Positions 5,013 through 9,071 of a DNA stretch of 50,711 nucleotides are shown here, in pieces (the stretch's first letter is position 1; the number at the start of each line of letters is the position of its first letter). Source of the stretch: Flavipsychrobacter sp. GTDB lineage: Bacteria; Bacteroidota; Bacteroidia; Chitinophagales; Chitinophagaceae. The notes under the pieces are model-generated. The model did no database searches. It was not told the origin of the DNA and was given only the letters and a program-made list of their open reading frames with translations. Position numbers and translations under genes: made by a program. The DNA lies in assembly GCA_021155965.1 (NCBI GenBank), contig JAJNBJ010000027.1, forward strand, positions 1 to 50,711, given 5' to 3'.

Positions 5013-5029
5013 GAAATGTAAGAATATTA

Positions 5030-5068
5030 AACGCCCCGCATAGCAAGTGCGGGGCGTTCCATTTTTTT
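5030..5068. terminator. Intrinsic terminator of the DUF3857 operon
   Basis: Arms 5030-5040 and 5048-5058 form an 11-bp GC-rich stem (AACGCCCCGCA) with a 7-base loop; a run of seven T at 5062-5068 follows on the plus strand. It lies between convergent genes and may also stop the minus-strand transcript ending at 5084. Confidence 0.9.
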
Positions 5069-5083
5069 GACCTATTAACCGGC

Positions 5084-5743
5084 CTATTTTTTCATCTCTA
5101 TTACTTTATCTATTTCGCCATCGAACTGGCGGCTTTCGAATAGCTCATCCCAGTTGAAAATATAGGGCTGTTCTTTATTGATAACTTTATTTTGTGCCAG
5201 GTGCTTCCGTGCATCGGGATAATAGATCCAGAATGCCGGTTGTTCTTTAGCAATGCCGTTGGCATCTTTTACTTCCGCCACAGGTGCTATCCCCACAATA
5301 CGAACTTCCACGGCGCCGCTGCTTTTCAGGTATAACCAGTCTTCTTTGATACGGTATTTTGTAACAACTGCAGGATTGAAGCCACCGGATCCGGGTGTAA
5401 GCAGTTTAATAAATTCTTCTCTTGTGAGCGGAGTTGTGAAGCGGTCATTAACAGCGCTGTAGGCTTTATAGGATCCATTAAAGAACCCTTCCGTAAGTAT
5501 TATTGCTAATTGCGAATTTGCAGCGAGCAGTCTGTTGCGTTCATCATGTATATCAATATCCCGCCATATGCGTTGTATTACGCGTATATCTCTCTCGGCT
5601 ATATAGTTCCATGGTATGGGCTGCGTTTGGTTGGGTTTTACACATCCTGCAGTCATTGGTGGTAATCCCGCAATGTTGGATTGTGCAAAAACAAAATTAC
5701 CGGCGAGCAGGCACAAGGCAGCACTGAAAATAGCTTTCTTCAT
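5084..5743 (-). CDS. GldN-like protein (type IX secretion/gliding), paralogue 1
   Basis: A 219-aa protein with a signal peptide (ending VFAQ). It shows the GldN/PorN pattern in order: PIPWNYIAERDI, RIWRDIDIHDERN, YRIKEDWLY, VEVRIVGIAPV, FWIYYPDARKHLA, and DELFESRQF near the C-terminus. GldN in known systems forms a periplasmic ring with the lipoprotein GldK at the outer membrane, as part of the type IX secretion and gliding motor. Here there is no gldK, gldL or gldM nearby, so it is a stand-alone paralogue. It is the last gene of a minus-strand series that starts with another GldN paralogue (8391-9071) and includes a sigma/anti-sigma pair and a beta-barrel protein. Confidence 0.85.
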   Translation of the reverse strand: MKKAIFSAALCLLAGNFVFAQSNIAGLPPMTAGCVKPNQTQPIPWNYIAERDIRVIQRIWRDIDIHDERNRLLAANSQLAIILTEGFFNGSYKAYSAVNDRFTTPLTREEFIKLLTPGSGGFNPAVVTKYRIKEDWLYLKSSGAVEVRIVGIAPVAEVKDANGIAKEQPAFWIYYPDARKHLAQNKVINKEQPYIFNWDELFESRQFDGEIDKVIEMKK

Positions 5744-5760
5744 ATAGGTGCGTTTTTATA

Positions 5761-5790
5761 TAAAGTTAGCACACTTTGTGGGAAATACAA
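5761..5790 (-). promoter_or_regulatory. Possible promoter for GldN paralogue 1
   Basis: Read on the minus strand: TTG (5790-5788), a 19-base spacer, then TAACTTTA (5768-5761), one base off TAnnTTTG. The ATG follows 17 bases later at 5743. This would let the last gene of the locus be expressed apart from the sigma operon. Confidence 0.4.
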
Positions 5791-5799
5791 TGCCTGCGA

Positions 5800-6966
5800 T
5801 CAAAACCGTAGTGTTACGCCGGGATATGCCTGCTTGAAATTGTTGGTGAAGATGATCTCTGGGCACAATGAAACGCGCTTGCTTAAGGTGTAGATCGCGA
5901 ATACTTTACCCGTTGCATTCTGGAAATAGTTTCCTTTTTCAGCGAATAAATAGCCGATGCCGACAGAACTCCGTTTATCGCCTTTTTGGGTGCCGAATTC
6001 AAGTGTGGCAAACCAATTGTCGTTGACAATAATCTTGTTGCCCAGACCTTTTTCGAAGAAGAAATAAGGTGTTGCAGATGCCCTGATGAAGCTACGCTTA
6101 TTTGGTACCCAGTTCCACCTGTCGTTAATTTCTATCCCCATCTCTGCCATGGGAGCAAACATGCTGCGGATAACTCCTAAGCCAAGTGAACCATCGATAG
6201 TGAGAATGCCATGCGTTGTATTCATATCGTTCTCATTCTCCCACAGGTTGTTTAATTTTTTGAAACGATACCTTTCTGAGTGGTTGCCGGTATCGAAAGG
6301 GCGGTATGCAATAGAGGTAGTGTTAAAAAATGGGAAGGCTTTTTTATTCTTTGGGTTAGATGCAATGATCAGGGTATCGATGATATGGTTGAGTGTGCCT
6401 TTGTTCGCCAATAACCCGTTCAGGTCTTCGTAATTGTTGAGGCAGAAAGTGATCTGGGCAGGTATATCCCTATGAACCACTCGTGCACCTGCTTTCGAAT
6501 CCCAACTGGTTGGCTGATCGTTAGAGTTTTCGAAGACGATCCTGATGGTATCCTGTTCAATTTTGAGTTTTGCCAGATCATTGCGATGAACTACGAACAG
6601 GTCGCCATCCGGGGCATATTTTTTAAACCGTATTTTGTTCAGTGGTTGGTAGGTAGCGTAGGCATAATCTATCCGTACATTACCGGCTGCGTTTAGAGAG
6701 TCCTTATAAAAGGCAATATTCTTCATCATCTCATTGAGTATCGGTTCAAGGCTGCTGAGCATAGTGTAGTTATGCGTATTATGCAATTCTATGATCATTT
6801 TCCCGTCCTTAGGAAGATAAACCCAGTGCCGGTTATTTACCTGGCTAGGCTGCATGTTGAAGTTGCTTTCCGTTTTAGTGAGGGAGGTGATTTTGCTTTC
6901 CTGGGCAAAAGTTTTCCCGGTCAGGCTTATCAGGATAAGCGCTGCAGATAAAAACTGTCTTTTCAT
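5800..6966 (-). CDS. Secreted beta-barrel-like outer-membrane protein, unknown family
   Basis: A 388-aa protein with a signal peptide (MKRQFLSAALILISL to TFAQ). The N-terminal half is polar and shows no domain I recognise. The C-terminal part (about residue 255 on) alternates polar and hydrophobic residues, with turns typical of an outer-membrane barrel (GILTIDGSLGLGV, SSVGIGYLFAEKG, VFAIYTLSKRVSL), and the chain ends in PGVTLRF with a terminal Phe, as expected for BAM substrates. It begins 12 bases after the anti-sigma stop, so it is very likely in the sigma/anti-sigma operon and may be part of its output. The mixed architecture, soluble domain plus barrel, is unusual for a plain PorT-type protein. 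Function unknown. Confidence 0.65.
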   Translation of the reverse strand: MKRQFLSAALILISLTGKTFAQESKITSLTKTESNFNMQPSQVNNRHWVYLPKDGKMIIELHNTHNYTMLSSLEPILNEMMKNIAFYKDSLNAAGNVRIDYAYATYQPLNKIRFKKYAPDGDLFVVHRNDLAKLKIEQDTIRIVFENSNDQPTSWDSKAGARVVHRDIPAQITFCLNNYEDLNGLLANKGTLNHIIDTLIIASNPKNKKAFPFFNTTSIAYRPFDTGNHSERYRFKKLNNLWENENDMNTTHGILTIDGSLGLGVIRSMFAPMAEMGIEINDRWNWVPNKRSFIRASATPYFFFEKGLGNKIIVNDNWFATLEFGTQKGDKRSSVGIGYLFAEKGNYFQNATGKVFAIYTLSKRVSLCPEIIFTNNFKQAYPGVTLRF

Positions 6967-6978
6967 TTTTGTTAGATT

Positions 6979-7746
6979 TTAGTTGATCTTAAATTTTAGA
7001 ACGTTAAGAGGCGTGTAATTTTCGTCGCTTGGGGTTGATGTGTTTGTTTGCTCCGAAGAGGAATTGAAAAGCGGAATACTAACCACAAAGTCTTTTTGTT
7101 GCTTCAGGTAATTACTAACCCTGGCCTGGTGATCGGTAATGTCATTTAAATGGATCACCTGTCCGTTCATAATTTTGAATAATGGTTTGTTTGAAGCCAT
7201 TGTTGCTTCTGATCCTGCAGGCTCGTTAACAAGGTCGTTGATATGCACTACTTTGGTTGGTATTTTTGAAGCCGTTGCCACTGGTGTATTTACTACAGAA
7301 GCCGTGGTCTCTGTAACAGGTATTTCTACAGCGGGGGCTTGAACGATCTGTATCTCTTCTCGTTTGGGCTGTATGGATTGCTTTTCCTCGTTTATAGTAG
7401 TGCGTTTTATTGCTTTGTGGGTTATAGCAGGGGTATTTTTCTCTGCTGTTACCGGGCGTTGCTCTAGTGACGTTGTTACAGTATTATTCACCGGCAATAT
7501 TTGTTGGGGTGTATTGCTCTTTACTACTTCATTTACAGGAATACTATTGTTAAAAGCAAGGAATATGGTCACCATCAGTAACAATATAGCTGCGGCTGCC
7601 ATCCAGTATTTTAACGAGATGACTTTTGCCGGTTTGTCCATACGTACCTGGAGTTTATCCCATGCTTCCTCTTTCCCAAACACTATACCAGTGGATAGTG
7701 TATCCAGCGAATTTATTTTTTCCTTCAGCACTTTATCCTGTTTCAT
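6979..7746 (-). CDS. Putative anti-sigma factor, single membrane span
   Basis: A 255-aa protein. A cytoplasmic N-terminus of about 45 residues (with KEEAWDKLQVRM, the kind of helix seen in Bacteroidota anti-sigma factors) is followed by one membrane span at about residues 48-66 (YWMAAAAILLLMVTIFLAF), then a long Thr/Val/Pro-rich extracytoplasmic part. Its ATG overlaps the sigma-factor stop by four bases (ATGA at 7743-7746), so the two are translationally coupled. Position and topology make it the regulator of the ECF sigma factor next to it; there is no zinc-binding ZAS motif (HxxxCxxC). The signal it senses is unknown, but the extracytoplasmic region and downstream barrel gene point to an envelope cue. 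Confidence 0.75.
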   Translation of the reverse strand: MKQDKVLKEKINSLDTLSTGIVFGKEEAWDKLQVRMDKPAKVISLKYWMAAAAILLLMVTIFLAFNNSIPVNEVVKSNTPQQILPVNNTVTTSLEQRPVTAEKNTPAITHKAIKRTTINEEKQSIQPKREEIQIVQAPAVEIPVTETTASVVNTPVATASKIPTKVVHINDLVNEPAGSEATMASNKPLFKIMNGQVIHLNDITDHQARVSNYLKQQKDFVVSIPLFNSSSEQTNTSTPSDENYTPLNVLKFKIN

Positions 7747-8276
7747 AGCACTATTTGTTTTTCTTTCAACATTTTTTGCAGCATCAATCTCGCTTTGTTC
7801 AACTGAGATTTTGAAGTTCCCTCAGTTATGCCCAGCATCTTCGCAATTTCCTTATGAGTGTATTCTTCCAGGCAGAACAGGTTGAATACCGTTCGGTAAC
7901 CTGAAGGTAGTGTCATTACCAGTTGGAATATCTCCCGCGCGTTTATTTTACTGAGATCGCCATCTACACCTATTTCTTCTGCATGCCCTTCGTCCACCAT
8001 CCTCAGTTCATTCTTCTTGCGCAGGAACATGAGGCACTCGTTCACCATTATCTTTTTCAGCCATGCACCTATGCTGCCTTTATCGTTATATACAAACCGG
8101 TCTATCGACTTAAAGAAGCTATAGAACCCATTCAGCATCAGTTCCTCGGCATCGGGCAGGTTTTTTACATAACGCAGGCACACCATCAGCATCCCATCGG
8201 AATAGGTATCGAACAGGTATTTCTGCGAGATACGGTCCTGCCGTTTACATCCTTCTATGGCTTTTTGTTCGGTCAA
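7743..8276 (-). CDS. ECF-type RNA polymerase sigma factor
   Basis: A 177-aa sigma-70 family protein. Region 2 covers about residues 20-90 (DTYSDGMLMVCLRYVKN, DAEELMLNGFYSFFKSI, GAWLKKIMVNECLMFLRKK); region 4 covers about 115-170 (LPSGYRTVFNLFCLEEYTHKEIA, then MLGITEGTSKSQLNKARLMLQKML). The start is TTG at 8276: the upstream in-frame codons run into a stop within five codons without an ATG, and the N-terminus beginning IEGCKRQDR matches the family's usual start. TTG use may keep expression low. It heads an operon with an anti-sigma factor and a barrel protein, with GldN paralogues on both sides. A 114-base gap separates it from the upstream GldN gene. Confidence 0.9.
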   Translation of the reverse strand: MTEQKAIEGCKRQDRISQKYLFDTYSDGMLMVCLRYVKNLPDAEELMLNGFYSFFKSIDRFVYNDKGSIGAWLKKIMVNECLMFLRKKNELRMVDEGHAEEIGVDGDLSKINAREIFQLVMTLPSGYRTVFNLFCLEEYTHKEIAKMLGITEGTSKSQLNKARLMLQKMLKEKQIVL

Positions 8277-8390
8277 TGCGTGTGGTTGTTACATTATATA
8301 TGCAGGATCGGGGGGAAAGGTTGCCTAGGGGAGAAAAATTAATAGACCCATTGATCTTTTTTACTATCAAATATGTTACCTTCTTTTATC

Positions 8391-9071
8391 TCAATTTTTT
8401 TCTTTTCGTTTTTTCTTTTTGTGTTTTTTGTTGGACCCATTTTCCTGTATTTCCTGTACCTGAGACGGTTCTACCTTGATTATTTTTGAGCTAAACTGCC
8501 GGGATTCAAAGTATTCATCCCATGTGTAGCGGGCAATATCATCACGTGGGTTAAACACCTCATACTGCGCAAACAGGTTGCGGCAATCAGGATAATATAA
8601 CCAGAATAAAGGTTTTATATTTCCGTTAACATTGACCGCAGGGGCAATCGCTAATATCCGCACTACCATCACGCCCTTCTCCTTATCGAATATCCAATCT
8701 TCTATTATCTTATAATACCCAACTTGTTTAGGATAGACACATCCTTCGCCGCATGGTATAATGGAATCTATTTTCTGTACTGATATTGGGTTTTTAAAAC
8801 CGGTGTCTTCATCTGCATAAGCTTTTATTGTACCATTTTTGAGTCCGAACAGTAATAGATTGGCAAATACATATTCTTTAGGTATGAGCGAATCATTGCT
8901 CATTGGGGCATTATTTTTTTCACGCAGGTCTATTTGTCGCCATACCCGTTTTTTCCAGAGTATATCCTGAGGAGCTATATATTCCCAAGGGATAGGTGTA
9001 GGAGTATTTGTTTGTGCATGCGAGCATGACCAGACGCAAGAAAAGAATATGAGGTACATTATGTATTTCAT
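8391..9071 (-). CDS. GldN-like protein (type IX secretion/gliding), paralogue 2
   Basis: A 226-aa protein with a short hydrophobic N-terminus ending SCSHAQ (the VWSC could also act as a lipobox). It fits GldN even better than the copy at 5084-5743: PIPWEYIAPQDILWKKRVWR, QIDLREKNN, YKIIEDWIFDKEKGVMVVRI, PLFWLYYPDCRNLFAQYEVF and YFESRQFSSKIIKV. An unusual CGEGC pair sits in the middle, and the C-terminus is a highly basic Lys-rich tail. Known GldN proteins act in the periplasm with GldK. This gene is the first of the minus-strand series, divergent from gpmI with 66 bases between them. Two GldN copies without the rest of the gldKLMN operon suggest a specialised or alternative secretion assembly. 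Confidence 0.88.
   Translation of the reverse strand: MKYIMYLIFFSCVWSCSHAQTNTPTPIPWEYIAPQDILWKKRVWRQIDLREKNNAPMSNDSLIPKEYVFANLLLFGLKNGTIKAYADEDTGFKNPISVQKIDSIIPCGEGCVYPKQVGYYKIIEDWIFDKEKGVMVVRILAIAPAVNVNGNIKPLFWLYYPDCRNLFAQYEVFNPRDDIARYTWDEYFESRQFSSKIIKVEPSQVQEIQENGSNKKHKKKKRKEKN

Follow-up and report, generated by a model that had tools for sequence, protein, structure and literature searches.

Why do two genes for GldN-family proteins stand on either side of a sigma factor operon? The question is raised by a 50,711-nucleotide stretch of Flavipsychrobacter sp. DNA (JAJNBJ010000027.1, the window in what follows), which forms contig 31 of a 4.25-Mb genome with a completeness rating of 99.78%. 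In it, genes for an extracytoplasmic function (ECF) sigma factor, an anti-sigma-like protein and an outer-membrane barrel protein, together called the triad, are bracketed by GldN-up and GldN-down (GldN-2 and GldN-1 of the initial annotation). Judging by the sequences of related genomes, the sigma/anti-sigma/barrel triad is a stable unit to which GldN is a labile addition, and the five genes together do not make up a conserved module. We tentatively favor an autoregulated envelope-signaling triad beside which one lineage keeps accessory GldN subunits, a reading drawn from the gene order, a common promoter-like motif, predicted folds and the pairing of a stable triad with labile GldN. A job shared by the GldN copies and the triad is possible. 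The genes are as follows (aa, amino acids).

9071-8391, minus strand: GldN-up, a secreted PorN/GldN-family protein; annotated frame of 226 aa, tail out of frame
8400-8339, minus strand: conserved C-terminal tail of the GldN-up type, ending in W-x-Y, in a different frame after an A-run near 8400
8276-7743, minus strand: ECF sigma factor, 177 aa, TTG start at a position common to relatives; Sigma70_r2 and Sigma70_r4_2 domains
7746-6979, minus strand: anti-sigma-like protein, 255 aa, overlapping sigma by ATGA; conserved N-terminal block, hydrophobic segment and VVHIN
6966-5800, minus strand: outer-membrane barrel protein, 388 aa; predicted signal peptide, N-terminal domain and C-terminal barrel
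5743-5084, minus strand: GldN-down, a 219-aa PorN/GldN core (PF19841) without the C-terminal W-x-Y tail

Transcription on the minus strand runs from GldN-up through sigma, anti-sigma and barrel to GldN-down. The gap between sigma and anti-sigma is -4 (the common ATGA), 12 bases separate anti-sigma from barrel, and 56 bases lie between the barrel end and the GldN-down start. These coordinates, the order, the overlap and the 12-base spacing agree with the initial annotation and are borne out by the open reading frames. Its two stand-alone GldN-family proteins are equally real: both have the PorN core fold of GldN/PorN (PF19841), scoring 167 bits (GldN-up) and 136.6 bits (GldN-down) over a curated Pfam cut-off of 23. 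On the NCBI equivalog TIGR03523 (cut-off 85.9) GldN-up passes with 112.8 bits and GldN-down falls just below with 83.4. As the annotation had said, gldK, gldL and gldM are absent from the genes at this locus, and neither copy is thus a canonical gldKLMN member. Rfam gave no match in the window at gathering score.

The triad and its promoter-like motif

The anti-sigma-like protein consists of a short N-terminal part, a single hydrophobic segment at about residues 47-65 and a long remainder. Pfam gives it no match over the cut-off; its N-terminal block, hydrophobic segment and VVHIN motif are all present in the consensus of 30 relatives. In the barrel protein the signal peptide is followed by an N-terminal domain (about residues 30-205) and eight predicted barrel strands (about 250-388), the structure comparison covering mainly residues 250-388, that is, the C-terminal part rather than the N-terminal domain. 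With its r2 and r4 domains, an adjacent single-segment membrane anti-sigma and a promoter motif at 31 of 31 loci, the pair would be an ECF sigma/anti-sigma pair, and the envelope-signal regulator that had been proposed indeed resembles an ECF system that regulates itself and includes an outer-membrane component. In cell-surface signaling of the FecIRA type the outer-membrane part is a TonB-dependent receptor with a plug; we rejected this class, as the barrel protein has 388 aa, eight predicted strands and no plug or receptor match in Pfam.

The barrel gene occurs in two or three tandem copies behind anti-sigma at L127 (6904-10677), L126, L129, L130 and L156. Secreted proteins of about 354-378 aa recur beside the triad (L117 4077-5141, L116 9632-11877, L132 5771-6907), and the three at L116 and L117 match nothing in Pfam at E values up to 0.1; the one in G172 is preceded by an ECF-like site.

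Four elements outside the coding frames bear on how the genes may be transcribed.

8326-8295, minus strand: ECF-type promoter-like element AGGCAACCTTT-N12-TGCATATATA, after the GldN-up tail and ahead of sigma; matrix score 39.9
9095-9088, minus strand: TATATTAC element, probable own promoter box of GldN-up, 16 bases before its start
5790-5761, minus strand: promoter-like TTG-N19-TAACTTTA before GldN-down, resembling the TAnnTTTG box of the main sigma factor
5029-5059, found on both strands: terminator-like hairpin of 12 pairs after GldN-down

The first, in the form AGGCAACCTTT-N12-TGCATATAT, precedes sigma at all 31 loci with a labeled sigma gene: 27 are direct matches and four (L117, L121, L126, L156) come from a matrix scan, the start codon there having been set too far up- or downstream. 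Its core, GGCAACC-N15-GCATATA, has exactly one exact occurrence in the window's own genome, ahead of sigma. In other genomes the motif stands before paralogous ECF sigma genes as well and so marks a group of sigmas. At L166 (position 8685, genome G136) a second strong copy (33.2) stands ahead of the gene for a 326-aa protein that closely precedes the sigma operon.

The TATATTAC element, probably a promoter box of the GldN-up genes' own to judge by its recurrence, is exact in 7 of 10 GldN-up upstream sequences, nearly matched in one more, and absent from L118 and the second L116 copy. TAnnTTTG is described as the main sigma factor's box in passages of PMC9723704; the relaxed TTG-N19-TAACTTTA pattern has 19 occurrences in the 50.7-kb window, both strands counted. 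A scan for terminator-like sites listed none on the minus strand from sigma to GldN-down. In this sigma-70 consensus scan promoter- and terminator-like sites were no commoner than in shuffles (terminator-like, 4 versus a shuffle mean of 4.7), and the long hairpin at 5029-5059 is the sole site that we use from it, with caution. On this layout, transcripts from the sigma promoter could extend into GldN-down.

GldN beside the triad: linked or merely adjacent

Of the 25 barrel-bearing genomes of the genus, nine have a GldN gene immediately upstream of sigma among the matches listed (the window, G162, G165, G166, G170, G172, G173, G174 and G176). For four of the 25 barrel loci (G155, G159, G164, G175) the call was made from coordinates only, and some loci run into the end of their contig (e.g. 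L134, L157, L164), so nine may be an undercount; the stand-alone GldN genes of the genus were fetched in part, and their counts mean at least that many. The upstream genes are related. Our GldN tree, a quick one with many weak forks, holds 101 of 116 domains (second domains of two-domain proteins and domains under 140 residues were excluded), and in it the ten sigma-upstream GldN genes of nine genomes fall in one 14-row clade with a Shimodaira-Hasegawa-like approximate likelihood ratio (SH-aLRT) of 91. Its four remaining rows are a G161 copy elsewhere in that genome, one from G156 (no barrel match), and those of G105 and G159, whose contigs end near the gene. One GldN subfamily is therefore truly, though often not, linked to the sigma locus, and the proposed tie between the upstream GldN and the regulator holds as a non-random link. 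GldN-down belongs to a separate, mixed clade of 25 rows (SH-aLRT 90).

Nearly as likely as the reading that we favor is that the genes are neighbors only: the triad functions by itself, and the GldN genes are paralogs particular to the lineage, inherited or lost with the neighborhood. Much of the comparison speaks for this or against our own reading. A profile search of 34 triad or barrel loci including the window found GldN at nine and none at 25 (12 of 20 other loci of the genus and 13 of 13 from other genera, some cut by contig ends). At the site between gpmI and the DUF3857/transglutaminase genes the triad is accompanied by GldN in the window and G165 and stands without it in G171; triads without GldN stand at syntenic loci such as L131. 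On a sigma-plus-barrel tree the GldN-upstream state needs six changes, at least four of them forced by well-supported branches; shuffled labels need 8.0 on average and as few in 37 of 500 trials. The W-x-Y tail is wholly absent from 5 of 10 sigma-linked GldN genes. The motif lies downstream of GldN-up and so cannot drive it, and GldN-down has a promoter-like site of its own. As the motif precedes paralogous sigma genes too, a site before a distant GldN gene need not belong to the triad sigma. Across the family GldN is mostly single (146 of 147 sampled genomes have it, 128 with one match and 18 with more), whereas all 35 genomes of the window's genus have 2 to 10 domain matches among those listed, so that extra GldN is the rule in this lineage and the exception in the family. 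Standing against a purely accidental neighborhood is the clade itself: 10 of its 14 rows lie directly upstream of sigma, and at the nine loci measured 11-30 bases separate the GldN end (in the window the tail end, 8339) from the motif, which is not random placement.

The initial annotation had staked its proposal on a conserved five-gene order, and GldN on both sides of the triad is seen in 2 of 35 genomes of the genus (the window and G172). It had also expected both GldN genes to answer to the sigma factor. We scored the 450 bases before each GldN domain start and obtained values for 115 of 116 domains; for second domains of two-domain proteins these bases are coding sequence. The motif is missing from 114 of the 115 regions, and the best scores upstream of the window's own copies are -2.8 and -3.9. 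Sigma control of GldN-up is therefore unsupported, the gene lying ahead of the motif and 7 of 10 of its kind sharing their own element, and so is sigma control of GldN in general. What stands is a single case, a stand-alone GldN gene in G152 at a great distance from that genome's sigma locus, with a site scoring 23.2 placed 18 bases before the ATG. The next-best GldN score is 12.3, and across 3.25 million positions of reversed sequence, taken from 256 partly overlapping loci, no score exceeds 19.1. ECF control of GldN is thus likely, on this motif match, in that one relative and, with a single site among 115 regions, not general. In G172 a site of 17.0, outside the scored range, lies ahead of a 354-aa gene followed by GldN-up; two control positions reach 17.

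Whole-genome searches were of two kinds. A pattern search allowing one mismatch gave 4 to 9 sites per genome in 8 genomes against 0 to 3 in the backward control, the sites being viewed solely through fetched loci. A promoter-model search (10 genomes, 150 candidates scored per genome) did not have the G152 GldN site among the candidates listed; it does not define a regulon, and we leave its weak matches uninterpreted.

A different use of the linkage would make periplasmic GldN a signal partner that contacts the barrel N-terminal domain or the anti-sigma and reports the state of the ring or outer membrane to sigma, rather than serving as a ring subunit. The tight GldN-sigma gene linkage, the substantial predicted periplasmic parts of both the barrel protein and the anti-sigma, and the lack in GldN-down of the tail thought to anchor on GldK would all suit it; yet most loci read retain the triad and have no GldN, and we think this decidedly improbable. 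About as improbable is decay, with GldN-up frame-broken, GldN-down truncated and neither functional in this strain: the out-of-frame tail of the one and the low equivalog score and missing C-terminal tail of the other invite it, but each core is an uninterrupted open frame that scores well in Pfam, the frame change sits at an A-run, where assemblies can err, and none of the 25 rows of the GldN-down clade ends in the tail.

The tail of GldN-up itself deserves a closer look. The annotated frame of 226 aa ends early relative to longer relatives that finish in W-x-Y: the tail is in one frame in P0002 and P0003 (242 aa each), L117, L118, L122, L123 and L149, and missing from L116, L119, L120 and L121. 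The shift near 8400 is either an assembly error or a real frame change. From its alignment position and from literature passages, W-x-Y would correspond to W278 of PorN. This putative anchor on the ring is present in many relatives of the GldN-up type, out of frame here, and without a counterpart in GldN-down.

Ring partners and a possible mechanism

The solved PorKN ring contains one K and one N protein in equal numbers. The window's genome holds seven GldN domains in six genes: the canonical gldN within gldKLMN (G000:C6), a stand-alone 332-aa copy (C44), a tandem pair at C16 (L010 8751-10645) whose second gene encodes a protein with two GldN domains, and GldN-up and GldN-down. It has one full-length GldM and one full-length GldK, plus a 518-aa relative, which its match pattern suggests is GldJ, and two of about 300 aa. 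Any function in the ring would mean sharing, as six GldN genes stand against a single GldK and a single full-length GldM.

Related tandem or two-domain GldN genes occur in many genomes of the genus. A second, distinct gldKLMN operon is found at L136, L139, L142, L145 and L175, and the stand-alone C44 GldN groups with the GldN of this operon. Proteins with at least 59% identity to the L139 GldM are matched in 31 of the genus's 35 genomes; the window's genome, G155 and the two incomplete genomes G148 and G149 have no such match. C-terminal-only GldM stretches lie within about 5 kb of stand-alone GldN at G163:C66 47605-49231, G166:C231 4053-8808 and G159:C519 12183-17451; according to passages of PMC12421860, the last PorM domain contacts PorN.

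On the reading of an envelope-signaling triad with accessory GldN, the barrel would sense a signal and the anti-sigma would release sigma, which would fire its own promoter at 8326-8295. The transcript would then cover the three triad genes and, in this genome, take in GldN-down before ending at the hairpin (5059-5029). GldN-down may thus be induced together with the triad; GldN-up lies outside the reach of the triad promoter and would be made from its own, with a transcript that could run into sigma. The GldN products would most likely be minority subunits of the ordinary type IX GldK ring, in the manner of Flavobacterium GldO: those GldN-up types that have the W-x-Y tail could dock on GldK, and GldN-down, without this anchor, would bind weakly or differently. 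A bolder version, which we consider unlikely, has the envelope-sensing ECF system swap or dope specialized GldN into the single GldK ring and so retune type IX secretion or gliding under outer-membrane stress, the GldN-up transcript feeding the sigma gene and closing a loop between ring state and signal.

With 2 to 10 GldN matches per genome among those listed, and here six GldN genes to one GldK, the wider question is whether such rings are mixed and regulated. It is testable because the promoter motif predicts which GldN genes may respond to sigma: GldN-down by read-through and the G152 copy directly, with GldN-up predicted to be unresponsive.

Comparison with known systems

Each half of the arrangement has precedents, namely an extra GldN in the ring and an ECF-type promoter or sigma tied to gldN or type IX genes; in literature on gldN copies and on GldN with sigma/anti-sigma operons we found no description of GldN flanking an ECF triad. 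GldO of Flavobacterium johnsoniae adjoins gldN. Like the copies here it is a second GldN-family protein in addition to gldN, with a proposed place in the ring; unlike it, the copies here are far from gldKLMN and beside an ECF triad. Passages of PMC8986121 place this second GldN-family protein in a proposed GldKN/O ring, and a title cited there speaks of partial redundancy.

PorN of Porphyromonas gingivalis (PDB 9mzu, 9ots, 9myj, 7pvh) grips PorK with its N- and C-terminal helices, according to passages of PMC12421860. GldN-down stops ahead of that C-terminal helix, and GldN-up has a Lys-rich linker in this part of the protein.

Closer to the regulatory half are the SM6/ECF-type promoters of Flavobacterium psychrophilum. 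Passages of PMC9723704 place this promoter class before gldN and porU, before the gene of an outer-membrane protein associated with PorM/PorN, and before a sigma/anti-sigma pair; they call the gldN listed a core component and give the box as CGT. Our locus differs in its accessory GldN copies, its GCATAT-type box and its added barrel gene. SigP of P. gingivalis is likewise an ECF sigma tied to type IX secretion genes, which according to passages of PMC4800418 bound the porT, porV, ruvA and porP regions and not those of sov and porK. SigP works with the PorXY two-component system, whereas the sigma described here adjoins an anti-sigma and a barrel gene.

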